Part shown: one piece after another, positions 1,738 through 25,302 of the stretch | How the letters are laid out: the number at the start of each line of letters is the position of its first letter | Position numbering within the stretch: the first letter of the stretch is position 1 | Assembly (NCBI GenBank): GCA_009778965.1 | Contig: WRFE01000014.1 | Location: 1-32,391, forward strand | Direction: 5' to 3' | DNA from: Candidatus Endomicrobium labiotermitis | GTDB taxonomy: Bacteria > Elusimicrobiota > Endomicrobiia > Endomicrobiales > Endomicrobiaceae | Length of the DNA: 32,391 nt | Notes under the pieces: generated by a model | The model's database searches: none | Told to the model about the DNA's origin: nothing | What the model saw: the letters and a program-made list of their open reading frames with translations, nothing else | Position numbers and translations under genes: made by a program

Positions 1738-4700
1738 ATGAAAACTATAAGAGTATTTATATGCGCATTATTTATGTTTATATTTGCCGGCGCGGCGTAT
1801 TGCGCTCCGATAGATTTTACAAATCAGGATGTGGTAAATTCTAGCTGGAGTAATGTGAATTCGGCAAATCAGGGAATATTTCATAGCGGTTTTACTATTT
1901 ATATTCCTACTGAAATAACCGGATTATCCGGTAATGTTATTCTTGCTTCAGACAGTAATTCATCCCGGGTTTTATATTCAAGCGGTGTTCACAGATTTTT
2001 ATCTTATCAGTCAGATAATTCTTCTCTTACAGTAACAGTAGGTTCAATAACTTTCAGATACGGGCAATATAGCGGAGATACGAGCGGAGGCGGAGGCGGT
2101 GCGGTATATTCGAGTTCCAATAATTTAACCGTAAGCGGCAATATTGTTTTTGATCAAAATAAATCTAATACGTCCGGCGGTGCAATATATCTTGCTTCAG
2201 GTACGCTTACTTTAGACGGTAATATAATTTTCAAATACAATGTAAGCGGTACTGACTATGGTTATGGCGGTGCAATTTACAGCGGAGACAATATAGTTGC
2301 AACTGAAGGCAGTTATATCGATATAAATAACAGTACTTCAACTACGGGCGGCGGAGCGTTTTATGCCGAACGCGGCTATATAATTATAGGAGGCATGGCG
2401 GAGATCAACTCTAATCGAGTAATTTCTGAAAACATAGAACATAACGGCGGAGCGTTTTATGCCGGCGATTACATTTTATTTTCATCATCGAATAGTATTA
2501 TAAATATCGTATCGAATTCCAGCCAGCTTTTAGGCGGCGCTCTATATTCTGGCAGCTCGGTGACATTTTACGGTGGAGCCAAAATAGAGTCAAATCAAAC
2601 TACTACAGGTTCAAGCACTAATACTGTGCGTGGCGGCGGCGCTATATATGCCGTAAGCAATGTTATTTTTACATCTCCGACTGCTGCTATTGAACTGACA
2701 AAAAATACAGGAACCGGCAATGGCGGTGCTATTCTTTCCGGCGGATATGTATCTTTTTCGGGTTCTGCAATTATTACCGGAAACTCGACTGAAACTAACG
2801 GACCGGAAAGTGACGGCGGTGCAATTTGGGCTGAAAATGGAATATTTTTTAGAAATGCATTATCCACTGTCACTATTTCTTACAATTCCGTAAAAACCAG
2901 CAATGCCGGAGCCTTGTATTCCAACTCATATATAATATTCGACGGTTATGTTACCGCAGTCGGAAATAAATCAGAAAAAGGCTACGGAGGGTTTTCTGTT
3001 TCAAGCGGTATTGTAGTAGGTGACGGCGGAGAGTTTCGGTATAATACGGCAGCATCGAGCGGCGGAGCATTTGTTATACAGAACAGTACGGCTTCTTTAA
3101 TTTCCGCAATTAGCAGAGACGTTGTTTTTATTGATAACGAAGCTGCTGGAAAAAGAAACGATATACATATGACTACTTCAACTCTTACTTTTTTTGCCGA
3201 TGACGGAAGAAGCATAACTCTTAACGGCGGTATTACAAGCGGCGGAAATAATAATTTCGTAATAAAAACCGGTTCGGGAACTCTTGCATTTAACGGTGAT
3301 TTCAGACTTCAGACTTTCAACGTATATGCAGGAACCGTTACTTTAGGCGCGACCGCGACTTTTGAGGCAATAGATGTAATTTTTTCATCTGATACCGTTA
3401 TAGATATGAGAAACAATAATAACAATGATATTTTAAGAATATCGTCTAATATAATTTCATCGGCTCTGATTTATTATGATTTCGATTCTGATTCAAATTC
3501 TTCTGACTTAATTACCGCAAATTTTGCCAATATGGAAGGTACGACAATTAAGGTCGGCATAGGAGGCATAAGTGCTTCCACAAAAACTTATATGATTGTT
3601 AAAACAACGGAAAACAGCCTCGGAAATATGGGTTTAGATAAAACAAATTCTCAAGGCAATGATATGAGAAGAGTCAATGCGTGGCTTACTTATAAAACAG
3701 ATTCAAACATAACAAGTTCATCAAGCTGGAATAATGCAAATTTAAATGTTTTTATAAATCAGTTAAACGCCATACAGGGTCTTACCGAAAACCAGCTTAA
3801 TGTTGCGTTGGCCTTAGACAGGGATTATGGAAATGCTGTTGACGATTTATTTTATATTATTGATGTCATTGACGGTTTTTCAAGCGAGCTTGAGAAAAAA
3901 GACGCTTTAAACGATATTTCAGGTCATATATATGCCAATGCCGTGACAATCTCAGCTTTAAACGCTTCTAAAAACAATATTTTATCAAGACTTAAAAAAA
4001 GTTATTTCATCGCCAATGACAGTGCGATTAAACGTAATGTCTGGATTCAGGGTTACGGTTCGTCAAATTTATATAAAGGAGACGTGGATTCTCCCGGAAA
4101 TTTTAAAGCGTCAAACGGCGGGTTTCTCGTCGGTTTTGACACAATGCGCGATGAAAGATATATATTTGGAGTAAGCGCCGGATACGTCGGCACAAGCGCC
4201 TCTCAAAACAATGATAAAATAAGTATAGACGGATACACTGTCGGCGGATACGGCTCTTATTTTTTTGAAAATGATGTTGAAGCGAAATTTATGATTGTCG
4301 GGGGAAGGCAAAATTACGATTCTTCAAGAGAAATAAGATATCTCAACAGAACAACAAAAGCCTCTTTTGTCGGATACAGTCTAAATCTTTCAGCGGAAGC
4401 GGGATATGATTACTATTATAGGAATAATGTTTATTTCAGACCTTTTGCCGGTCTTGATTATTCATTTGTCGCGACAAATGAATTTAGTGAAACAGGAGTA
4501 AATTTTTCTACAAGCGCAGCGGATTTAACCTTATACGCAGGCTCGTATAACAGAGCTAACGCAGGTTTTGGTTTGCAAATTAATAACGGAACCCAAATGA
4601 GGATGAAATGGTATGGAGAAGTCAGGATGGATGCGATTTTAATTGGGGCAACTGGGGAATTTACCGGAAAATTTAAAAACAGCGAGCATGAACTTGAAAT

Positions 4701-4887
4701 AAAGGGTGTTTCAAATAATCCGTTAAACTATGGAATCGGCGTTGGCGGTTTATACGATATATCATCGGCATTCAGCGCCTATATTAATTTCAATTACTCT
4801 ATGTCGTCAACCCAATCGGGTTATTACGGAAATATCGGGTTAAATTATAAATTTTCAACCGAAATTATCGGTTTTTACGACAGATAA
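1738..4887 (+). CDS. Pmp-like autotransporter (beta-helix passenger plus barrel)
   Basis: 1049 residues. A Sec signal peptide (about 1-23: Lys/Arg start, hydrophobic core, cut near AYCA) precedes a Gly/Ser/Asn-rich passenger. Through about residue 480 the passenger repeats a GGA(I/V/F/L)-aromatic motif roughly twelve times (for example SGGAIYLA, YGGAIYSG, NGGAFYAG, DGGAIWAE), alternating with FxxN-like tetrapeptides (FDQN, FKYN, FRYN, FIDN). This is the hallmark of chlamydial polymorphic membrane proteins and predicts a right-handed beta-helix. The last 270 or so residues (from NVWIQGYGSSN) are an autotransporter beta-barrel that would insert in the outer membrane. The barrel's last strand NIGLNYKF is followed by ten further residues rather than ending on the aromatic residue. 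SD GAGAGGG at 1728-1734. Ligand or adhesion target unknown. Confidence 0.88.
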   Translation: MKTIRVFICALFMFIFAGAAYCAPIDFTNQDVVNSSWSNVNSANQGIFHSGFTIYIPTEITGLSGNVILASDSNSSRVLYSSGVHRFLSYQSDNSSLTVTVGSITFRYGQYSGDTSGGGGGAVYSSSNNLTVSGNIVFDQNKSNTSGGAIYLASGTLTLDGNIIFKYNVSGTDYGYGGAIYSGDNIVATEGSYIDINNSTSTTGGGAFYAERGYIIIGGMAEINSNRVISENIEHNGGAFYAGDYILFSSSNSIINIVSNSSQLLGGALYSGSSVTFYGGAKIESNQTTTGSSTNTVRGGGAIYAVSNVIFTSPTAAIELTKNTGTGNGGAILSGGYVSFSGSAIITGNSTETNGPESDGGAIWAENGIFFRNALSTVTISYNSVKTSNAGALYSNSYIIFDGYVTAVGNKSEKGYGGFSVSSGIVVGDGGEFRYNTAASSGGAFVIQNSTASLISAISRDVVFIDNEAAGKRNDIHMTTSTLTFFADDGRSITLNGGITSGGNNNFVIKTGSGTLAFNGDFRLQTFNVYAGTVTLGATATFEAIDVIFSSDTVIDMRNNNNNDILRISSNIISSALIYYDFDSDSNSSDLITANFANMEGTTIKVGIGGISASTKTYMIVKTTENSLGNMGLDKTNSQGNDMRRVNAWLTYKTDSNITSSSSWNNANLNVFINQLNAIQGLTENQLNVALALDRDYGNAVDDLFYIIDVIDGFSSELEKKDALNDISGHIYANAVTISALNASKNNILSRLKKSYFIANDSAIKRNVWIQGYGSSNLYKGDVDSPGNFKASNGGFLVGFDTMRDERYIFGVSAGYVGTSASQNNDKISIDGYTVGGYGSYFFENDVEAKFMIVGGRQNYDSSREIRYLNRTTKASFVGYSLNLSAEAGYDYYYRNNVYFRPFAGLDYSFVATNEFSETGVNFSTSAADLTLYAGSYNRANAGFGLQINNGTQMRMKWYGEVRMDAILIGATGEFTGKFKNSEHELEIKGVSNNPLNYGIGVGGLYDISSAFSAYINFNYSMSSTQSGYYGNIGLNYKFSTEIIGFYDR

Positions 4888-16716: not shown

Positions 16717-17040
16717 ATGTCAAAGAAGAATATATCCATAAGCGTGTCTGTTCCAGTGTATTTTTTTAAGCATAACGGAGACAAATATATTTATGCTGAA
16801 TGTCCTTCTTTGCGTATAATAACTCATGCAAACACTCTTGCCAAAGCCAAAAGAAGATTTGATGAGGCGTTTAAGCTTTGGCTTGAAGTGGCGGTTGAAG
16901 ACGGAATAAGAAAAGATTTAAAAGCTTTAGGCTGGAAAGTTACTCCTACGGAAGTTACTCCCAGAGATGAATTTAGAAAAATACCTCTCGAAATTCTTGC
17001 CAGTACAACAGTTCATATACGTATTCCCCCGGCGGCATAA
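16717..17040 (+). CDS. hicB: HicB-type antitoxin
   Basis: 107 residues. The N-terminal half has the HicB partial RNase-H fold pattern: ISVSVPVYFFKHNGDKYIYA, ECPSLRIITHANTLAKAKRRFDEA (the usual CPxL...G-T...A...EA block). It should bind and block HicA. The C-terminal part (ALGWKV, then a short strand VHIRIP) shows no ribbon-helix-helix or HTH, so autoregulation by this protein is not evident. SD AAAAGGAG. Only 2 bases separate it from the toxin gene, in antitoxin-first order. Confidence 0.8.
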   Translation: MSKKNISISVSVPVYFFKHNGDKYIYAECPSLRIITHANTLAKAKRRFDEAFKLWLEVAVEDGIRKDLKALGWKVTPTEVTPRDEFRKIPLEILASTTVHIRIPPAA

Positions 17041-17042
17041 TT

Positions 17043-17276
17043 GTGGGCCTGTTAGAAACAGTAAAAATTCATGACTTTAACAAATTTTTAGAATCGTACG
17101 GTTATTATGAACGCCGTCAGACGGGCAGTCATGCTATTTACAAAAAAGATAAAGGCGGCGGCTCAATAACAATTGCTATTCACGGAAAAGAAGTCCCTTT
17201 TTATGTAATAAGGCAGGTAATAGATTTATTGAAAATCACAAGAGAAGAATTTGAAAAAGAAATAAAAGATTTCTAA
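17043..17276 (+). CDS. hicA: HicA-type mRNA interferase toxin
   Basis: 77 residues, typical size. HicA toxins have a double-stranded-RNA-binding-like fold and cleave mRNA. The catalytic His is His30 in RQTGSHAIYKK, with the second family block IAIHGKEVPFYVIRQVIDLL. The start is GTG at 17043, 2 bases after the hicB stop, so the pair is translationally coupled. The first accessory promoter palindrome begins 16 bases after the stop. Confidence 0.88.
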   Translation: MGLLETVKIHDFNKFLESYGYYERRQTGSHAIYKKDKGGGSITIAIHGKEVPFYVIRQVIDLLKITREEFEKEIKDF

Positions 17277-17291
17277 AAACTAAAAACTTAA

Positions 17292-17325
17292 ACGTCAATA
17301 CGTTGTCGCGCCCCTTTGGTATTAT
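17292..17325 (+). promoter_or_regulatory. Palindrome-promoter site P1 (phosphoesterase operon)
   Basis: Palindrome ACGTCA-ATACGT-TGTCGC (17292-17309), then exactly 10 bases (GCCCCTTTGG), then the -10 hexamer TATTAT (17320-17325) preceded by the extended-10 TG. No TTGACA-like -35 is present; the palindrome occupies that place. Three other sites in the window share this layout. The SD AAAGGAGG follows before the ATG at 17354. Confidence 0.75.
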
Positions 17326-17353
17326 ATAGAAAAGACAAAGGAGGCGTTTTTTT

Positions 17354-18031
17354 ATGGCTGATAAAAATGTTTTTGTTTTTGGGGACATTCACGGGCTTAC
17401 TTTATGGAAAAATGTTGTTGAAGATAATCTGTCTGCGGATTTTGTTTTCTTGGGCGATTACTTAGACCCATATCTTGATATACCAGACAAAATACTGCTT
17501 GATAATTTGCGTGAAATTATTAAACTTAAAAAAGACCGCCCAAAAAATGTTGTTTTGCTGTTGGGCAATCACGACTTGCATTATTTCGACAATAAAGCTC
17601 TTAATGCGGGACGCTTTAATTACGAAATTGCCCCTGTCGCGGAAAAACTTTTTATGGACAACAGAAAATTGTTTCAATTTGCTTATCAAAATGGCAAGAC
17701 GATTTTTACGCATGCCGGTATAACAAACGACTGGTTTATAAATGACTTCAAAGGCGACATAAAGAAAAATATCGCCAAACAGTTAAATAATCCCAAAAAC
17801 TCCGAACAGGAAAACACCCTCTATTACGCAAGTGAAAATTTTCGCGGAGGTTTAAACGAAAACGGCGGACCGTTCTGGTCTGATATTTGTGAAATCGGAA
17901 ATGACCCTTTAAAAGACTTCATTCAAGTCGTAGGTCATAACAGAGTTGAGAAAATAGGAAGAATGGAAATATCCGGCGGCAAGATAATTTTTTGCGATTG
18001 TTTGGAAAGTGGAAATTATTTAAAAATATAA
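17354..18031 (+). CDS. Calcineurin-like metallophosphoesterase
   Basis: 225 residues with the full metallophosphoesterase signature: GDIHG (Asp11, His13), GDYLDP (Asp35), GNHD (Asn72, His73), FTHAG (His120) and VVGHN (His195). These bind two metals and should hydrolyse a phosphoester; the layout resembles PPP-type Ser/Thr phosphatase or diadenosine-tetraphosphatase relatives, but the substrate cannot be told. A strong SD (AAAGGAGG) and seven-T spacer precede the ATG. It is the first gene behind site P1 and probably leads an operon with the deiminase and HNH genes, although a 168-base gap with nested repeats separates it from the next gene. Confidence 0.85.
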   Translation: MADKNVFVFGDIHGLTLWKNVVEDNLSADFVFLGDYLDPYLDIPDKILLDNLREIIKLKKDRPKNVVLLLGNHDLHYFDNKALNAGRFNYEIAPVAEKLFMDNRKLFQFAYQNGKTIFTHAGITNDWFINDFKGDIKKNIAKQLNNPKNSEQENTLYYASENFRGGLNENGGPFWSDICEIGNDPLKDFIQVVGHNRVEKIGRMEISGGKIIFCDCLESGNYLKI

Positions 18032-18049
18032 AAGAATCAGTATTGAGCC

Positions 18050-18170
18050 GTCATACTGAGGGACAAACTCCCGAATGTATCCATCTGTTGTTTCCCTCGC
18101 CCCTTGCGGGAGAGGGCAGGGTGAGGGTTGTCTTTGCATGTGTGGATTTTTCACTTTGTTCCAGAATGAC
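18050..18170. repeat. Interspersed GTCAT...ATGAC element with a nested second repeat
   Basis: The outer ends are GTCATACTGAGGGACAAACT (from 18050) and CCAGAATGAC (to 18170). Inside, at 18094-18127, is a GC-rich hairpin repeat (CCCTCGCCCCTTGCGGGAGA, then GGG) that looks inserted into the outer one. It fills the gap between the phosphoesterase and deiminase genes. Such sequences often generate false ORFs. Confidence 0.7.
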
Positions 18171-18199
18171 AAATTAATACATAAAAGGACAATAATATC

Positions 18200-19057
18200 T
18201 TGAAAGAAATTATTTTTACAGCAAAACCCAATAAAGAAGTTGATGAACTTTATCCTGAATTTAAGGAGTTTTATCTTAACTTCAAAAACATCGCAGAGAA
18301 GTACCATACTTGCGAAAGTGTAAGTCTGCCCGATATATGGGTGAGGGATTTTTTGCCCATAGAAAACGTTAAAACCGGCAAGCTGTATAATTTGTTTTAT
18401 GATCCTACTTATAATCGCGGGTTCCTCAAAAATTTTTATGCCAAAATCAGAACGGCAGTAAAAAAAGAATTTCCTAAAGCGCAGGATTTGCCTGTGCGTA
18501 TGGACGGCGGCAACTTAACTGTAAACAGCCAAGGCATAGCTTTTGCTTTTGAAAAGAGCGTAACTGTTAAAAACACTTCATATGAAAATCTTTCCAGCCT
18601 GCTAAAAGAAAGCCTAGGCTTAGCAGATATTGTTTGGCTGCCAAGATTACCCGAAGCGTATGATCCGTTCTGCCATATAGACGGTTTTATGCAGTTTTTG
18701 GGAGATGACATTTTACTTCTAAACAAGTCGTATGATATAGATGAAATCACAAAAAAACATTCGGAGAAGTGTTTTAAAATAATAAATTCAAAGTATCCAA
18801 ATTTAAAAATTATTGAATTACCTGTAAATGTTGAGCCTTATGATACTTTAAGCGCAAAAGGTATATACGTTAATTTCTTAGAAACTTCAAAAGCTGTATT
18901 TGTGCCGCAGTACAATTTACCGCAGGATAAAGAGGTATTTGATATAATAAAAGTACTAACTGCCAAAGATGTTGTAGGCATTGATTGCGAGAAGATATCT
19001 AAATACGCTGGTTCATTGCATTGTTTGACGTCAACACAAATTGTTAAAGGAGATTAA
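18200..19057 (+). CDS. Agmatine/peptidylarginine deiminase-family amidinohydrolase
   Basis: 285 residues of the guanidino-modifying (PAD_porph/agmatine deiminase) fold. Active-site blocks: PDIWVRDFLPI (Asp45, Asp50), RMDGGNLTV (Asp102), CHIDGF (His159, Asp161) and, at the C-terminus, GSLHCLTSTQ with nucleophile Cys275. It would release ammonia or transfer at a guanidino group. It is shorter than typical agmatine deiminases (about 340-370) and lacks some of their blocks, so the substrate is uncertain. The start is TTG at 18200 with AAAGGAC about 9 bases upstream. The HNH gene starts 2 bases after the stop, so the two are co-translated. Confidence 0.8.
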   Translation: MKEIIFTAKPNKEVDELYPEFKEFYLNFKNIAEKYHTCESVSLPDIWVRDFLPIENVKTGKLYNLFYDPTYNRGFLKNFYAKIRTAVKKEFPKAQDLPVRMDGGNLTVNSQGIAFAFEKSVTVKNTSYENLSSLLKESLGLADIVWLPRLPEAYDPFCHIDGFMQFLGDDILLLNKSYDIDEITKKHSEKCFKIINSKYPNLKIIELPVNVEPYDTLSAKGIYVNFLETSKAVFVPQYNLPQDKEVFDIIKVLTAKDVVGIDCEKISKYAGSLHCLTSTQIVKGD

Positions 19058-19059
19058 AT

Positions 19060-19737
19060 ATGGAAATTAAAGATTTACAAGAGTTGATACAAAATGAAAC
19101 CGGAATAGAATTAACCGACGAAGAGGCTAAAGTTCTTTTATATTACTCTGTTGAAAGAAAACAAGATGATCTATGGAAAATCATATTAGATAGTTATGAG
19201 GGCAAGACAAAAAAAGATTTTAACAATAGCCAGGATTATTTTTGGGCTAACAATGATAATAAATTAAAAGATGTAAGAGAGTTCTTTAATAAATTTTTTG
19301 GCAAATTTAATGCAGACACAGAGTTTAAAGATGAAGAAGGAATAGAGAAAAAATACAAGTCCCGTAAAAAAGGATTTGGCGATTTTAAAAATTTCTTGAA
19401 CTGGTATTTTTCACAATATAAAAAGCAACAGGGAAAGTGTTATTATTGTGGGATGGAAGAAAAAGATTTGAAAGACTTGTTGGAGGGAAATAAGAAAAAT
19501 AGCTTTAAATCTAAGAAATTTACAAGCGGAGGATTGCAAATTGAAAGAAAAGTTGCCCCTGACGAATATCATGAAAACTCCGATAACGGATATACAATAG
19601 AAAATTGTGTTTTAGCTTGTGCATTATGCAATAATGCCAAAAGTGATTTGATATCTTCTGATGATTTTATGAAATTTTTTGCCAAACCAATGCAAGATTA
19701 TCTAGAAAAAAGAAAAAAAGAACTTAAAGACAAATAG
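19060..19737 (+). CDS. HNH-type endonuclease
   Basis: 225 residues. A long N-terminal alpha-helical region (1-120, highly charged) precedes a zinc-HNH module: Cys127-x2-Cys130 (CYYCG), the LQIERK strand where DR is usual (Glu162-Arg163), and YTIENCVLACALCNNAKSD with Asn182, Cys187-x2-Cys190, Asn191 and Lys194. The Cys pairs hold structural zinc and the module should nick or cut nucleic acid. No recognition domain is identifiable. It follows the deiminase by 2 bases and ends before a good terminator, so it is the last gene of this unit. A defence or mobile-element nuclease is the likely role. Confidence 0.8.
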   Translation: MEIKDLQELIQNETGIELTDEEAKVLLYYSVERKQDDLWKIILDSYEGKTKKDFNNSQDYFWANNDNKLKDVREFFNKFFGKFNADTEFKDEEGIEKKYKSRKKGFGDFKNFLNWYFSQYKKQQGKCYYCGMEEKDLKDLLEGNKKNSFKSKKFTSGGLQIERKVAPDEYHENSDNGYTIENCVLACALCNNAKSDLISSDDFMKFFAKPMQDYLEKRKKELKDK

Positions 19738-19751
19738 TACTTCCATTAAAC

Positions 19752-19803
19752 AAAACCGTCTTCTTGAGAATAACATAAAACAAGGCGGTTTTCTTTATTT
19801 TTA
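19752..19803 (+). terminator. Rho-independent terminator after the HNH gene
   Basis: AAAACCG (19752-19758) pairs with CGGTTTT (19786-19792), extended inwards by CTTG/CAAG, followed by a T-rich tract CTTTATTTTT. It lies 15 bases after the HNH stop and just before promoter site P2, separating two transcription units. Confidence 0.65.
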
Positions 19804-19807
19804 TGAA

Positions 19808-19841
19808 GCGACATAATGTTGTCGCGATGAAATGGTATTAT
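19808..19841 (+). promoter_or_regulatory. Palindrome-promoter site P2 (ClpX-like operon)
   Basis: Perfect palindrome arms GCGACA and TGTCGC around TAATGT (19808-19825), 10 bases (GATGAAATGG), then TATTAT (19836-19841) with an extended-10 TG. SD GGGAGGA (19866-19872) precedes ATG 19878. An in-frame ATG at 19803 would translate through this site and is rejected as a start. Confidence 0.8.
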
Positions 19842-19877
19842 ATATCCATAACAAGAGTGAAAATAGGGAGGAAGACT

Positions 19878-21434
19878 ATGGAACAGTCTAAAGAGCAGGA
19901 ACAAAAAACTCAAGAAGAAAAAGAAACGTCAAAGAAGCAAGAATTGTCTTATGCAAGCAATAACGATTATTTAGACGATTGCATTGACCTTGTAATGAAA
20001 TTTGACGATGGTAATAAATATGCGAAATACAGCGACTTTATTGCCGATATTGAGAATATAAACTCTAAAGTTACAAACAGCGCAATTAAAATTTCTTTTG
20101 AAGAAAAAATTAAAAATTACAATTTTAGCCCGCTTGAAAAATTTTTATTATGGTTTTTAGGTTTGAATGTTTTTATAGCGCTCAGAAGTTCCGCAGATTA
20201 TTCTAGGCTTCTTCGGCAGTTTATACAAAACGGCAGAGTTAAAAGTTCTGAAGTAATAAACATGCTGAGCGAAACCGGGAATTTAAGAAAAAGCAAATGT
20301 ATTAAGCTTGAAAATGGTGACTTTTGCATAAATAAGGATTTATACGGCTTATTAACAGGAATAAAAAACGCGAAAAAAAGTAAAAATAATATTCAAATGT
20401 CCGTATCCGTAAAAGATAAAATGCCTAAAATGATTTATGAAAAAATAGATAAATACGTAATATCGCAAAATGAGGCAAAAAAGAGTATCAGTTCCGCTGC
20501 TTGCGAACATTTAACAAAATGTAAAATTAACGCCAAGGCTAAAACAGACAAGCTTGATAAAACCAATACTTTAATTATAGGCGGTACAGGCACGGGTAAA
20601 ACGTATCTGTGCCAAGTGCTGGCTGATGTATTGCAGCTGCCTTTCCATTTGGCAGATATGAGCAAAATGAGCGAAAGCGGTTATGTAGGCGATTCCGTTG
20701 ACACCGTAATAACAAGGCTAAGCCGGAAAATTGACGGGTATAGAGGGCAGTTTCCGCCGAGTATTATTTATTTAGACGAGATAGATAAAATTTGCGAGCA
20801 AATGGATTATAAAGGCAGAAGAGATATTGCAGGTACATCTGTTCAGCAGGAGTTATTAAAACTTATAGAAAGTAACAAATACAGTACTTTTGCTACAATG
20901 AGAGTATCAAGTTCAAGCGAGCAGGACATTTCAAACATTATGTTTATAGCGGGCGGCGCGTTTGTGGGCTTGGATAAAATTATAAAAAAGCGTCTGAAAA
21001 TAGAAAGTGATAATAAAAGGCAAATAGGCTTTATTTCTAACACAGCAAGTGAAGAAAGTAATGAAAATATATTGCAAAGAGTAATCCCGCAAGATTTAAT
21101 TGAATACGGTTTTATGCCGGAACTTATAGGACGGTTTTCAAACATAGTAGTTTTAGAACCGTTAAGCGAAGACGATTTAATATCGATTCTTTCAAAATCC
21201 AAAAATAATGTGTTTGAACAATATAAGAAGATATTCAAAGAGCATAATATAGATTTGGAAGCGCAGGAAAACCTGTTTAGGGAAGTAGCGCAAAAAGCTA
21301 TAAAAGCGGGAACCGGCGCCAGAGGTTTAAAAAATATCCTTGCTAAAATATGCGGCGACTATTTGTTTGAAATAGGCGAAAACAAAGATAAAAAAATAAC
21401 GATAACCAACGACGATCTGAAAAGAATTGCTTAA
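19878..21434 (+). CDS. ClpX-like AAA+ unfoldase with a novel N-terminal domain
   Basis: 518 residues. From about residue 185 it is a ClpX core: VISQNEAKK, Walker A GGTGTGKT (235-242), pore loop GYVG (268-271), Walker B YLDEID (about 298-303), the IMFIAGGAF sensor-1 block, the arginine-finger region EYGFMPELIGRF and sensor-2 GTGARGL (near 480). An IGF tripeptide at 383-385 matches the ClpP-docking loop of ClpX, so it may feed ClpP. The first 180 residues are not the zinc-binding domain of ClpX. They hold a charged Glu/Lys/Gln start and a helical part with a hydrophobic stretch (EKFLLWFLGLNVFIAL) that I do not recognise, perhaps a different substrate or adaptor module. Expressed from site P2, with a small gene following. 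Confidence 0.85.
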   Translation: MEQSKEQEQKTQEEKETSKKQELSYASNNDYLDDCIDLVMKFDDGNKYAKYSDFIADIENINSKVTNSAIKISFEEKIKNYNFSPLEKFLLWFLGLNVFIALRSSADYSRLLRQFIQNGRVKSSEVINMLSETGNLRKSKCIKLENGDFCINKDLYGLLTGIKNAKKSKNNIQMSVSVKDKMPKMIYEKIDKYVISQNEAKKSISSAACEHLTKCKINAKAKTDKLDKTNTLIIGGTGTGKTYLCQVLADVLQLPFHLADMSKMSESGYVGDSVDTVITRLSRKIDGYRGQFPPSIIYLDEIDKICEQMDYKGRRDIAGTSVQQELLKLIESNKYSTFATMRVSSSSEQDISNIMFIAGGAFVGLDKIIKKRLKIESDNKRQIGFISNTASEESNENILQRVIPQDLIEYGFMPELIGRFSNIVVLEPLSEDDLISILSKSKNNVFEQYKKIFKEHNIDLEAQENLFREVAQKAIKAGTGARGLKNILAKICGDYLFEIGENKDKKITITNDDLKRIA

Positions 21435-21447
21435 AGGATGCAAAAAA

Positions 21448-21753
21448 ATGAATCATACAGAAAAAACATTAAAGGAAATATTCAAAGTTTCAAAACTAAA
21501 GGATAATACAAAAGGCTTTTTATTATCTAACGGCGAATACATTGATATAAAGAATAACAGTCATTCAACAGCAGCCGCGGAATTAGGTTTAACATTGGAA
21601 GAATTGTTGTTAGAAAATATATTGAGAATTGCCTGCTATAACGGCGAGCTGGAAGTAGAAAAAGCAAAAGATTCTGAAATAACCGCAAAACAAAAAACAG
21701 TAATAGAAGAGTTTGTTAAAAGTAATAAGATTAAAAAAATAAGATATTCCTGA
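21448..21753 (+). CDS. Small protein of unknown function, 101 residues
   Basis: No confident family. The sequence has a strand-rich N-terminal half (GFLLSNGEYIDI), a conserved-looking His (NSHSTAAAELG) and a helical C-terminal half ending ITAKQKTVIEEFVKSNKIK. The order G-h-h-L-x-D/N-G ... His ... QxxxI recalls small proteins found in phages and mobile regions, but this is only a pattern impression. The start ATG 21448 has AAAGGA about 9 bases upstream; the gene begins 13 bases after the ClpX-like stop, so the two are probably co-transcribed. It could be an adaptor, substrate or inhibitor of the unfoldase. Confidence 0.6.
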   Translation: MNHTEKTLKEIFKVSKLKDNTKGFLLSNGEYIDIKNNSHSTAAAELGLTLEELLLENILRIACYNGELEVEKAKDSEITAKQKTVIEEFVKSNKIKKIRYS

Positions 21754-21881
21754 AATTCTTCTTTTTTATATGCTTACTGTATCTTGCAATTGTGGAGATA
21801 TCAAAAAACCTGCTAGAAAGTTGTTAATAAAATGAAAAAATGATAAATTGACTTTAGATAAAAAAGTATTAAGGATTATTT

Positions 21882-23048
21882 ATGAATTTAGAAGCGCTAC
21901 TGCAACAAGTTTTTTTAATTAGCCAAAAATACGATGAGATAGCCGAGCGTACCGGAGAAAACTTTAACATTTTTAACATTCTGCGCGTTTCAAGACTTGA
22001 ACTTCCGCATTCAAATGTTATAGCCGCTTTATTAAATCCAAAAGAACACCATAGCAAAGGCAATACATTTCTAAAACTATTTTTGAAAAAGTTAGATATA
22101 AACGAAACTGAATTTTCCTTAGAAAATGCAAAAGTTAAAACAGAAGTTACTTTGGATAACGGTCGAGTAGATATAGTTATAGAAAGCGGTAAAAAAAGCA
22201 TCTTTATTGAAAATAAAATTGATGCTGACGATCAAAACAAACAACTGGAACGTTATTATAAGCATAAGCCCTATAAACTTTTTTACTTAACTCTAGACGG
22301 TCGAGATGCACGTGAAGAAAGCGCGGGTAATCTTGAAGAGGGACGCGAATATAGCTCAATATCATACGGAGATGAAATTTTACAATGGCTTAAAGAATGC
22401 CTTAAAGAATCTGTAAATTTTCCGATGTTAAGAGAAACCATACAACAATATATTAATTTAATAAAAATATTGACCGGTCAATCAAGGAGTGTTGAAATGT
22501 CAAACGAAATAATAGATATTTTGCTAAAAGATAAAGATAATTATTTAACGGCGTGGGAGCTTCGCGCCGTTGTAGAGACAGCCACGGAAAGAATTATAAA
22601 AGAACACTTTAGTCCTGAAGTTAAAAAAATTGCCGACAAACACAATTTGATTGTTTTAGATAATAATTTGACATCTAAGGACAAACCGCGACATAGCGGT
22701 TTTAATTTGAGCGATGAAAAAAAGCAATGGACTATCCGTTTCCAATTTGAACATAGATGGTCTAATGGTTTTTTATATGGTTTCCCGTCATCTAAATGTG
22801 AACATGTTACTATAAGTTTAAATGAAAATTTAGACAAATATTTAAGAAACAAAGCTCAAGAACTCGGCTATAAATCATCTGATCCATGGTGGCCGCTATT
22901 TAAGTTTATGGAGCCATACGAAAATTGGACTCCTAATGTTTATGCGGAATTGTTAAATCCAAACAATGAAGTATTAAAGAAAATTGAAGGAAAAATAATA
23001 GAGTGTTTAGAGATTATAAAAGATTATAATTCTCAAGTAAACTACTGA
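21882..23048 (+). CDS. PD-(D/E)XK nuclease superfamily protein
   Basis: 388 residues. The N-terminal half matches the PDDEXK_4-type pattern: ELPHSNVIAALLNP (Glu40, His43, Ser44) then the core VDIVIESGKKSIFIENKI with Asp97, Glu110 and Lys112, followed by Gln121...Tyr125 (QLERYY). These would coordinate Mg2+ and cut DNA. The C-terminal half (190-388) has no recognised domain; it contains a Trp-rich stretch (KKQWTIRFQFEHRWSNG; DPWWPLFKFMEPYENW). SD AAGGA at 21871-21875. The 128-base gap upstream shows no P-type palindrome, so it may be read through from the ClpX-like operon or have its own weak promoter. A stand-alone defence nuclease is a plausible guess. Confidence 0.8.
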   Translation: MNLEALLQQVFLISQKYDEIAERTGENFNIFNILRVSRLELPHSNVIAALLNPKEHHSKGNTFLKLFLKKLDINETEFSLENAKVKTEVTLDNGRVDIVIESGKKSIFIENKIDADDQNKQLERYYKHKPYKLFYLTLDGRDAREESAGNLEEGREYSSISYGDEILQWLKECLKESVNFPMLRETIQQYINLIKILTGQSRSVEMSNEIIDILLKDKDNYLTAWELRAVVETATERIIKEHFSPEVKKIADKHNLIVLDNNLTSKDKPRHSGFNLSDEKKQWTIRFQFEHRWSNGFLYGFPSSKCEHVTISLNENLDKYLRNKAQELGYKSSDPWWPLFKFMEPYENWTPNVYAELLNPNNEVLKKIEGKIIECLEIIKDYNSQVNY

Positions 23049-23074
23049 TTATGCTAAAAAATTCATAAACTATA

Positions 23075-23108
23075 GCGTCAATACGTTGTCGCGCCTCCTT
23101 TGTATTAT
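23075..23108 (+). promoter_or_regulatory. Palindrome-promoter site P3
   Basis: Palindrome GCGTCA-ATACGT-TGTCGC (23075-23092), 10 bases (GCCTCCTTTG), -10 TATTAT (23103-23108). It is nearly identical to P1 from the palindrome through the SD. It is followed by AAAGGAGG and an ATG whose third codon is a stop, and then by the membrane-protein gene at 23201. Confidence 0.72.
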
Positions 23109-23128
23109 TTAGAAAAATACAAAGGAGG
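23094..23128. repeat. 13-bp inverted repeat spanning the P3 -10 and the SD
   Basis: CCTCCTTTGTATT (23094-23106) and AATACAAAGGAGG (23116-23128) are perfect inverted copies separated by 9 bases. The left arm contains most of the -10 element and the right arm the Shine-Dalgarno sequence. Site P1 has only a shorter version (CCTTTG/CAAAGG). Confidence 0.75.
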
Positions 23129-23134
23129 TTTTTT

Positions 23135-23143
23135 ATGCAATAG
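23135..23143 (+). other. Two-codon open frame ATG-CAA-TAG behind a near-perfect SD
   Basis: AAAGGAGG (23121-23128), a six-T spacer, then ATG CAA TAG. It is either a relic of a duplicated gene start, given the likeness of this stretch to the start of the phosphoesterase gene, or a deliberate minigene/leader ahead of the membrane-protein gene 58 bases later. No further coding is open in this frame. Confidence 0.35.
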
Positions 23144-23200
23144 TCTTTAATATCTTCTCCAAATATGTCATGCAATTTAATTAAAAATCAGGAGAGTAAA

Positions 23201-23728
23201 ATGAAAAATTTTATTACAAAACATTGTTTTTTAGTTTCGTTTGTCGTTGTTTCAATAATTTGGAGTGTTTTAGTGTATAATCCGCTTTATGAAAGTTCAA
23301 AGGATAGACTTTTAATTAATAGTCTAAATACTTATATGCTGTATGCTAACCCTGACGCTGACATTGTAACCATAAAAAACACTTTAGAAGATATTATATC
23401 TGACAACAGTAATGTGTCAGTTTCAATTACAAAGATATCAGAACCTGATAAAATAATTTACAATAATATCGGCTACAAAGAAAGCCGGTATAAAAATAAA
23501 CCAAGAATATACGGTATAGGCAGCTTTTTTAGAAATGACGAACAATATGAATATAAAATTGCCGGGCAGCATAAGTATATTTTACCTGTGGCGCTTATAA
23601 AGCTATGGTCTTTTTCAATTATACCTGATATTAATAGAATTATATTACTCCAAAGCTTATTTTTCTGGCTTATGGTAGTTTTGTTATGGAATCTGTTATT
23701 GTTTTACAAAAAAGAGGGTATGAAATAA
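23201..23728 (+). CDS. Small membrane protein, function unknown
   Basis: 175 residues. One hydrophobic segment near the N-terminus (about 7-24: HCFLVSFVVVSIIWSVLVY), a polar domain of about 95 residues with mixed strands and helices (25-120) that should face the periplasm, and a hydrophobic C-terminal region (ILPVALIKLWSFSIIP and IILLQSLFFWLMVVLLWNLLLF) giving one or two more helices before a short basic tail. I recognise no family. ATG 23201 is chosen for its SD AGGAG (23190-23194). It lies downstream of promoter site P3 and converges on the HAD gene, with 15 bases between the stops. Confidence 0.65.
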   Translation: MKNFITKHCFLVSFVVVSIIWSVLVYNPLYESSKDRLLINSLNTYMLYANPDADIVTIKNTLEDIISDNSNVSVSITKISEPDKIIYNNIGYKESRYKNKPRIYGIGSFFRNDEQYEYKIAGQHKYILPVALIKLWSFSIIPDINRIILLQSLFFWLMVVLLWNLLLFYKKEGMK

Positions 23729-23743
23729 TAAAGCTGACGGATG

Positions 23744-24562
23744 TTATAATTTTGGCGTAATATTGTCGGAATTTAATATTTTCTTAATATATTTTTCTAA
23801 TTCGCTGTTTTCGCCGTAATCCGCAGGCGCAATAAAATTTACGCGTTTGTCTTTCAGCAAAGTTTCGGCTTCATGTTTTTTTTGCGAGGAGTTTTGGTTA
23901 TATACGGCTATTGAATTGCCGCCTTTATCTTTTAACAGTTTCATACAAGGCACGTCGGTAAAACCGTCTCCTATATAAACCATATTGGTAAACGGAACAT
24001 ATATATCTTTTTTATCGGTAAGTTTGTTTACTTCCCGGTTATTGTTAATATCAAAGCAGCCTTTGCTTATTCTAAACAAAAATTGTGTCTTATTTGTATA
24101 GTTTACTGCGAACGCAGGCCATTTTGGCTCGCCGTTTTGATCGTAAATGTATGAAGATGCGTATATTTGTTTAAATTCGCCTGCAATTTCCGCGCCTTCT
24201 ATCATTTCTTTAAGTCCTGAAGATATGATGTAATGCTCAACCTCTACGCCTAATTTTTTGCCATAAAAGTTAATCCGTTCAAACCAAGTTTTAACGCCGT
24301 TAAAAAACGCTATCTTTCTGCCGCAGCCCGCAAGCGTTTCTTTGGTAAGTTTAACGTTTTTGGAGGCAGCGGCTTTTTCTATGATTTTAAGCATATACAC
24401 AAGTACGGTGTCGGCATTATAATCTTTGGCGTATTCTATAACTTCTTGCCAAAAATCGTCTTTATTTATGCCAAAACTGGGTATTAATTCATTGTCCTGC
24501 ATATTATATGGCAAAAGAGTATCGTCAAAATCATAACAAATGGCAAATTTATTGTTTTTCAT
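23744..24562 (-). CDS. HAD-superfamily phosphatase
   Basis: 272 residues. HAD motif I is YDFDDTLLP (nucleophile Asp11, acid/base Asp13), motif II is YIISSGL (Ser114/115), motif III is the Lys of NKTQF (Lys158), and motif IV is YIGDGFTDVPCM (Asp199, Asp203). A sizeable helical cap lies between motifs I and II (about 20-100). It should be a Mg2+-dependent phosphatase; the Asp13 and the motif IV layout recall phosphoserine-phosphatase relatives, but the substrate is not known. SD AAAAGG lies a few bases upstream. It follows the unknown gene by 14 bases and is probably transcribed with it from site P4. Confidence 0.85.
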   Translation of the reverse strand: MKNNKFAICYDFDDTLLPYNMQDNELIPSFGINKDDFWQEVIEYAKDYNADTVLVYMLKIIEKAAASKNVKLTKETLAGCGRKIAFFNGVKTWFERINFYGKKLGVEVEHYIISSGLKEMIEGAEIAGEFKQIYASSYIYDQNGEPKWPAFAVNYTNKTQFLFRISKGCFDINNNREVNKLTDKKDIYVPFTNMVYIGDGFTDVPCMKLLKDKGGNSIAVYNQNSSQKKHEAETLLKDKRVNFIAPADYGENSELEKYIKKILNSDNITPKL

Positions 24563-24576
24563 ATATTTTATACCTT

Positions 24577-25236
24577 TTAAATAATATGTTGTTTTAATCC
24601 GCGCGTTGCGTTGTAAATAATGCCTGCATCGCGGATATTAGGAGAATAGGCATGATTAAAAAAAGAGGTTTTTTCAAACAACGACAATATATCAGTATCA
24701 AAAATAAAGGTTTTTTGCAGTATTTTCCGACTTTCCGAGTCAGGTCTATGAAAGGCGTTGTTTATAAGAATTTTTGCTTCGCTTAGCTCGATTAACTTGA
24801 CTAACCTTAATACGGCAATTAATTGCCAATCCCATAGTAAAACTCCGTAACTATCGTTGCATAATGAAGCGATTATAGGATATTTTTCAACGGCAGTTTT
24901 GTGTCTAAGTATGCGGGCTCTTAATTCTTTTATACCGCCATAATAAGGAAAACGGTAAAAAATATAACATGCCGCAGTCTGCATAAGCGTTTGAGGTTCT
25001 AATTCATTTATAATGTTCAATAAGTCATAATCAGGGTACAACATTTCTTCTTTATAATAATCCGTATAATGTATTCCGACAGAACCTAACAGATAATATC
25101 CGTTTACGCTTGTTGCGTTTATACACTTGAAATCATCATTTTTAGTATAGTCTTCCATTATATACAATTTTTGCTTAATTTCGCTTGTTATCTCACCTTT
25201 TTCAAAATAGTGTTTTTTTACAGTGATATTTTTCAT
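24577..25236 (-). CDS. Protein of unknown function behind promoter P4
   Basis: 219 residues, no family recognised. It is rich in Tyr, Ile and Leu with mostly helical character; noticeable stretches are NGYYLLGSVGIHYTDYYKEE, FYRFPYYGGIKELRARI and LLWDWQLIAVLRLVKLIE. No signal peptide, clear membrane segment or catalytic motif. The frame is open further upstream to a TTG at 25278, but ATG 25236 has GGAG at good spacing and leaves the P4 promoter untranslated. First gene of a two-gene unit with the HAD phosphatase. Confidence 0.65.
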   Translation of the reverse strand: MKNITVKKHYFEKGEITSEIKQKLYIMEDYTKNDDFKCINATSVNGYYLLGSVGIHYTDYYKEEMLYPDYDLLNIINELEPQTLMQTAACYIFYRFPYYGGIKELRARILRHKTAVEKYPIIASLCNDSYGVLLWDWQLIAVLRLVKLIELSEAKILINNAFHRPDSESRKILQKTFIFDTDILSLFEKTSFFNHAYSPNIRDAGIIYNATRGLKQHII

Positions 25237-25268
25237 AGGACTCTCCAATTTTTTTGTTTCAATAAATA

Positions 25269-25302
25269 ATTGTAGCAATTGCCAGCGACAGCATTATGTC
25301 GC
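25269..25302 (-). promoter_or_regulatory. Palindrome-promoter site P4 (unknown-HAD operon)
   Basis: Read on the - strand: GCGACA-TAATGC-TGTCGC (25302-25285), 10 bases (TGGCAATTGC), then TACAAT (25274-25269) with an extended-10 TG. The 5' leader to ATG 25236 is about 26-28 bases. Its palindrome core is nearly that of P2 (TAATGC against TAATGT), yet it faces the opposite way and drives unrelated genes. Confidence 0.78.

Follow-up and report, generated by a model that had tools for sequence, protein, structure and literature searches.

Palindromic promoters in an accessory region

What controls four otherwise different transcription units of Candidatus Endomicrobium labiotermitis which share one palindrome-plus-promoter design, lie on both strands and have no regulator gene beside them? 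These units occupy an accessory region of contig WRFE01000014.1 (C14), of which we analysed positions 1 to 32,391, a stretch of 32,391 nt hereafter called the window. The initial annotation attributed the design to one dimeric regulator, acting as repressor or activator at a fixed distance from the -10 hexamer. Our analysis strongly supports a single regulator, encoded on another contig and akin to DNA-damage sensors, which reads all four gene groups of the window. We consider it quite probable that the palindromes are operators of a DriD-like homodimeric activator with helix-turn-helix (HTH), WYL and WCX domains, which is encoded on contig C47 and drives an accessory regulon. The sites are as follows.

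17292..17309, + strand: palindrome 1, ACGTCAATACGTTGTCGC, a predicted site of the WYL regulator; its upstream half (CGTCA) has one mismatch and its downstream half (TGTCGC) none; reads ACGTCAATACGTTGTCGC-gcccctttgg-TATTAT
17320..17325, + strand: -10 hexamer TATTAT with TGn extension, 10 nt past palindrome 1
19808..19825, + strand: palindrome 2, GCGACATAATGTTGTCGC; reads GCGACATAATGTTGTCGC-gatgaaatgg-TATTAT
19836..19841, + strand: -10 hexamer TATTAT with TGn extension, 10 nt past palindrome 2
23075..23092, + strand: palindrome 3, GCGTCAATACGTTGTCGC; reads GCGTCAATACGTTGTCGC-gcctcctttg-TATTAT
23103..23108, + strand: -10 hexamer TATTAT, TG one base off
25285..25302, - strand: palindrome 4, GCGACATAATGCTGTCGC; reads GCGACATAATGCTGTCGC-tggcaattgc-TACAAT
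25269..25274, - strand: -10 hexamer TACAAT with TGn extension, 10 nt past palindrome 4

All four 18-bp palindromes were found where the initial annotation had placed them, on both strands, and the spacing of exactly 10 nt to the -10 hexamer was true at 4/4 sites; the extended -10 TG claimed for three of the four was confirmed at 17292, 19808 and 25302. The absence of any TTGACA likeness at the expected -35 position also stood, the best match at spacers of 16-18 being mostly 1-2/6 at the sites of this genome. Palindromes with at most two mismatches have an expectation of 0.53 per window, and four were reached in 0/100 shuffles of the window. An Rfam search for structured RNA gave no match.

The annotation had proposed a genome-wide scan, and it returned promoter-positioned sites throughout. 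The pattern RCGWCA-N6-TGTCGC-N10-TAnnAT matched five times in the 1.89-Mb genome (reversed control, 0), and relaxing its last base to T added three matches, all on contig C47. The resulting eight sites are spread over three contigs (C14: 17292+, 19808+, 23075+ and 25302-; C2: 21532+; C47: 5259-, 11389- and 11535+), and each lies directly upstream of an open reading frame (ORF) with a Shine-Dalgarno (SD) sequence, the -10 usually beginning 31-42 nt ahead of the start codon; at site 23075 the first good ORF is 98 nt away. Isolated palindromes on contig C30 are within genes and have no -10.

A WYL protein encoded on contig C47

A WYL activator was suspected because TGTCG, 11 nt and TAnnnT is the register of PafBC promoters and because DriD binds a palindrome over the -35. 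The whole genome encodes one WYL protein (C47:8410-9342, minus strand), built of winged HTH (wHTH), WYL and WCX domains (PF08279 at 3.2e-4, which is below the cut-off; PF13280 at 3.3e-9; PF25583 at 2.7e-9). The three C47 sites belong to the same cluster as this gene and flank it, the cluster itself sitting between ddl-like and murB-like cell-wall genes as judged by eye from the translations. Reading from site 11389-, an AAA+ ATPase (IetA-like) comes first and the WYL protein second, and after them stand two PD-(D/E)XK nucleases of family PDC-S26 with a 216-aa protein between them; of the other two C47 sites, 11535+ is upstream of an HNH gene and 5259- of a gene for a dual-specificity phosphatase. 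The earlier remark that no regulator gene is visible nearby is thus true of the window; the regulator gene stands on C47, with three copies of the promoter around it.

When the PDB was searched with the WYL family profile, DriD came first (1.6e-7) and PafC next (9e-4); the single WYL sequence gave no match, and only the profile search found relatives. As structural model we used that of a homologue (L107) which is 49% identical to the C47 protein and has a mean predicted local distance difference test (pLDDT) score of 82. With this model Foldseek placed DriD at all of ranks 1-11, followed by PafBC, BrxR and CapW. Profile and model both point to DriD, and then PafBC, as the likely closest solved relatives of the family, ahead of other WYL proteins.

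GTDB genomes were then scanned with an alignment of the C47 WYL family, giving 80 loci (33 from Elusimicrobiota, 20 from Omnitrophota, Scalindua and others, and 27 mostly from Campylobacterota), which are not fully independent, as some repeat places used earlier and several come from one genome. The gap-6 palindrome CGACA-N6-TGTCG (at least 9/10) was present near the regulator at 31/33, 16/20 and 9/27 of these loci, respectively. Perfect gap-6 palindromes numbered 25, 32 and 1 in the three groups against 0, 1 and 0 for a control palindrome, and gaps other than 6 gave 0-4 copies, near background. The spacing to a TAnnnT hexamer peaked at exactly 10 (71/138, 37/96 and 11/22 strand-sites), the other spacings counting 1-9 each among the Elusimicrobiota strand-sites. 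Palindrome and 10-nt spacing are thus kept across phyla, as the comparison of related genomes suggested in the annotation was meant to reveal. In Campylobacterota (L160-L186) a site variant, AGACATAAAGNTGTCG, retains the 10-nt spacing to TATACT, and only its downstream half is unchanged.

The link is specific to this family. No palindrome was found at the loci of six WYL genes of other subfamilies in the same phylum, which rules those subfamilies out as readers. Among 60 related genomes, at least two good sites occurred in 9/9 with the regulator vs 4/51 without it (Fisher 5e-8). At about 10 loci a site stands immediately ahead of the WYL gene itself, 21-32 nt away, and gene families of the window recur beside the regulator in other genomes. 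The window shuffles, the genome scan with its reversed control and the control palindrome at the loci together rule out a chance origin of the palindromes. One dimeric regulator acting at a fixed distance is strongly supported by the eight-site scan and the cross-phylum conservation. Within the collection of papers searched, none joined WYL domains with Elusimicrobia.

Activation, repression and other readings

The two wHTH domains would bind the half-sites CGACA and TGTCG and so cover the place of the missing -35. Since the downstream half-site stands at a fixed 11 bp from the -10, the regulator would replace the -35 contact and recruit the housekeeping RNA polymerase. Its WYL domains may bind a nucleic-acid ligand derived from DNA damage or invasion and thereby switch it on; by analogy with DriD, PafBC and SiwR, where the ligand is single-stranded DNA (ssDNA), a nucleic acid is probably sensed here as well. 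The activated regulator would then turn on dispersed accessory units (nucleases, AAA+ ATPases, phosphatases, agmatine-deiminase-like proteins) together with its own operon. Because a single regulator almost certainly reads the one promoter design, it is probable that one signal induces the scattered defence-like and repair-like genes jointly.

Between the repressor and the activator that the annotation had left side by side, the evidence favours the activator, and we hold this with good confidence. The promoters have no -35, their spacing is exact to the base, and the regulator is kin to DriD and PafBC. All three groups of relatives conserve the downstream half TGTCG better than the upstream one (55 vs 42 of 68, 36 vs 29 of 37, and 11 vs 1 of 11), so the two half-sites are not equivalent, as would be expected if TGTCG faces RNA polymerase; PafB, too, touches a single motif around -26, and the binding of DriD is asymmetric (PMC11804915, PMC12340889). 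TGn was present at the extended -10 of 35/68 sites vs 6/68 one base off, that is, G at -14 is enriched.

The same WYL protein might instead be a repressor like CapW and BrxR, blocking an extended -10 promoter until its ligand releases it, which we regard as rather unlikely. Such a protein would suit the defence-like genes at which the sites stand, the fold search also finds BrxR and CapW, and autoregulation of the WYL gene is compatible with repression too. A complete promoter, as looked for under CapW/BrxR-type repression, is not seen, since the sites are without a -35, yet TGn extended -10 elements are present and could work without one. Against repression stand the base-fixed spacing, the better-conserved downstream half, and the fact that the nearest proteins in fold and sequence, DriD and PafBC, are activators with an identical promoter register. 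Moreover, LexA-repressed promoters of the same genomes look different: the lexA promoters of relatives, read in 11 upstream regions (one cut by a contig end), keep TTGACT/A and have the operator ATACA-N2-TGTAT between -35 and -10, which shows how a repressed promoter with -35 plus operator looks in these genomes. These lexA genes (L199-L210) appear to be autoregulated, the box standing between TTGACT/A and TATAAT, e.g. TTGACTAAAATACAAATGTATATTATAAT.

That a different regulator reads the palindrome, the WYL genes being merely members of its regulon, is improbable. It would account for four genomes (G012, G021, G031 and G013) in which convincing sites occur and no WYL protein was detected. However, the palindrome is tied to one WYL subfamily over several phyla, with none at other subfamilies, the WYL gene is often autoregulated, and the site resembles those of DriD and PafBC. 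LexA, the SOS regulator, has hardly any probability as the reader: a LexA is encoded in the genome and it would be natural for accessory genes to be damage-controlled, but the palindrome tracks the WYL gene, and the lexA promoters carry ATACA-N2-TGTAT and no CGACA-N6-TGTCG. The annotation's advice to try LexA and XRE regulators first is not supported, the regulator being a WYL protein of the DriD/PafBC type. Recombination or cassette junctions of a mobile element, with the promoter incidental, are just as improbable as LexA, for although every site of this genome lies in an accessory stretch, the window island starts at a synteny breakpoint and the SD-ATG after site 23075 soon reaches a stop, roughly every second strand-site, over several phyla, has the exact 10-nt spacing to a -10, family searches of the window proteins found no recombinase next to the sites, and sites also precede genes conserved between genomes (the RmuC unit of G012 and G021).

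Several observations weigh against the DriD-like activator from C47. The regulator and the window are on separate contigs of a draft genome, and at two of the window sites the upstream half is imperfect. Sequence identity with DriD reaches only about 20%, and the L107 model fits DriD weakly overall, with a template modelling (TM) score of about 0.48, because the placement of its domains relative to each other is uncertain. The gap between CGAC and GTCG is 8 here vs 7 in DriD. Finally, the four genomes named above have sites and no detected WYL protein; searches with the family profile, Pfam WYL and WCX found no hidden WYL gene in the site-bearing genomes G012, G013, G021, G026 and G031. In those four, therefore, the regulator may be lost or very divergent, or a second regulator may act.

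Genes under the promoters

The four window promoters precede the following genes.

17354..18031, + strand: calcineurin-like metallophosphoesterase, first gene of unit 1 (PF00149, 5.6e-10; SD upstream)
18200..19057, + strand: agmatine-deiminase-like (PAD_porph) protein, unit 1 (PF04371, 2.2e-30)
19060..19737, + strand: HNH-nuclease-like protein, unit 1 (PF01844, weak, 0.0025)
19878..21434, + strand: ClpX-like AAA+ ATPase, 518 aa, first gene of unit 2 (AAA_2, 2e-20)
21427..21753, + strand: 108-aa protein overlapping the ClpX-like gene, probably unit 2; no family matched
21882..23048, + strand: PD-(D/E)XK nuclease, candidate defence family PDC-S26, possibly the end of unit 2 (PF14281, 3.1e-38; PDC-S26, 1.2e-91)
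23201..23728, + strand: 175-aa protein, unit 3, without known family
24577..25236, - strand: 219-aa protein, first gene of unit 4, without known family
23744..24562, - strand: HAD-like hydrolase, candidate defence family PDC-S34, second gene of unit 4 (PF12710, 1.5e-6; PDC-S34, 1.7e-115)

Several of these families accompany the regulator elsewhere. Homologues of the agmatine-deiminase-like gene occur at 14 loci of the WYL regulator in other genomes and those of the HNH gene at 4; a weak homologue of the metallophosphoesterase adjoins a WYL gene in L060/L131. A homologue of the ClpX-like ATPase (L114:143-1648) lies directly under the same palindrome promoter; clpX models score below their cut-offs on the window protein. 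The C47 cluster adds two PDC-S26 copies next to its WYL gene. The promoter also precedes an RmuC unit and units encoding two-domain AAA ATPases, RtcB ligase, the RNA-repair nucleotidyltransferase RlaP, DUF2828 and DUF2779 proteins, and a type I restriction subunit. In several Elusimicrobiota (L124, L126, L127, L134 and L159) genes for RtcB, RlaP and DUF2828 proteins that adjoin the WYL gene stand behind the palindrome promoter. In L188-L193 (G021, G031, G012 and G013) good sites stand before type I restriction, Eco57I-like and SLOG+RmuC units and a two-domain AAA gene. Going by family names, the contents of the regulon suggest defence and nucleic-acid repair.

The window island begins at a synteny breakpoint after greA, and the genes following greA differ in three congeners, in which no exact empty site of the island was found; the break fits an accessory stretch without a clean empty site. 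Just upstream of unit 1 are a HicA-type toxin gene (17043-17276; PF07927, 4.5e-12) and a 107-aa partner ORF (16717-17040), and 1738-4887 encodes an autotransporter carrying chlamydial polymorphic membrane protein (PMP)-type repeats. Downstream of promoter 3, at 23120-23143, a good SD is followed by a frame of only two codons before the stop (ATG CAA TAG), the next ORF running from 23201; a decayed gene, a junction or a tiny leader ORF are candidate readings. At 17313-17341, 23094-23128 and near C47 5226-5259, an anti-SD-like arm in the spacer (CCTTTG, CCTCCTTTG) is complementary to the SD (CAAAGG, CAAAGGAGG), and at the first two a T run follows. This hairpin could form solely in transcripts that read through from upstream, where it could hide the SD or end transcription. 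As a general part of the design the hairpin was rejected: it occurs at three sites of this genome only and elsewhere is not above shuffles.

Comparison with known systems

Taken further, a WYL activator family might run a genome-wide, SOS-independent alarm regulon in several phyla, its base-fixed promoter module being acquired along with accessory defence and RNA-repair genes and placing unrelated new systems under one trans-acting nucleic-acid sensor; this we put forward tentatively. Many separately acquired defence genes would then answer to one sensor, whereas most known WYL defence regulators serve one neighbouring system. The predicted sensor, its operator and the base-exact rule (TGTCG, 11 nt, TAnnnT) make regulons listable from sequence in poorly studied phyla, and they tie DriD, PafBC and the C47 WYL family to one promoter geometry.

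DriD of Caulobacter is a homodimeric WYL activator of an SOS-independent damage response (PMC12340889, PMC4211646), whose site ATACGAC-N7-GTCGTAT overlaps a poor -35 at a constant distance from the -10, with a conserved G-14 (PMC12340889). The HTH-WYL-WCX order, the palindromic CGAC/GTCG site over a non-consensus -35, the constant -10 distance and the conserved G-14 are all shared here. In the didA and CCNA_03891 promoters (PMC12340889), a distance of 11 nt from GTCG to the -10 agrees with the G at -14 reported there; this agreement shows consistency and is not independent evidence, because the hexamer position was chosen by that G. DriD acts on core damage genes (didA, bapE, recJ, dnaG), its own gene not being among them, whereas the promoter described here serves accessory genes and often the regulator gene as well. 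With the different gap, different outer bases and accessory targets, the C47 protein is not DriD proper, i.e. an orthologue.

PafBC of mycobacteria is a heterodimeric WYL activator working by sigma adaptation (PMC11804915, PMC5656591), with the promoter motif tTGTCRgtg-8nt-TannnT (PMC5656591). The grammar of TGTCR, 11 nt and TAnnnT without a -35 is common to both, as are the WYL and WCX domains. PafBC, however, recognises a site that is not a palindrome and activates repair genes, recA among them; the single WYL gene of this genome and its palindromic site exclude identity with it. SiwR of Mycolicibacterium smegmatis is a homodimeric WYL activator which binds ssDNA and a 19-bp imperfect palindrome between -35 and -10 (PMC10693628). 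The proposed regulator would likewise be a homodimeric WYL activator on a palindrome; SiwR controls an adjacent gene pair, in contrast to the several dispersed units read here in trans.

CapW and BrxR are WYL regulators of the cyclic-oligonucleotide-based antiphage signalling system (CBASS) and of bacteriophage exclusion (BREX), respectively (PMC9122588, PMC9122601). They share the WYL fold and the defence-gene context, but they are local regulators of one system and rank behind DriD and PafBC in the fold search; a layout with the regulator beside a single target system is ruled out by sites on three contigs and a regulator on one. RtcR, a CARF-domain activator of RNA repair acting with sigma-54 (PMC7790460), differs in both protein family and sigma factor. 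It shares ligand-sensing activation of RtcB-type RNA repair, for which the WYL palindromes before RtcB and RlaP in relatives predict WYL control, and it is possible that in several Elusimicrobiota a WYL-run RNA-repair regulon takes the place of RtcR.

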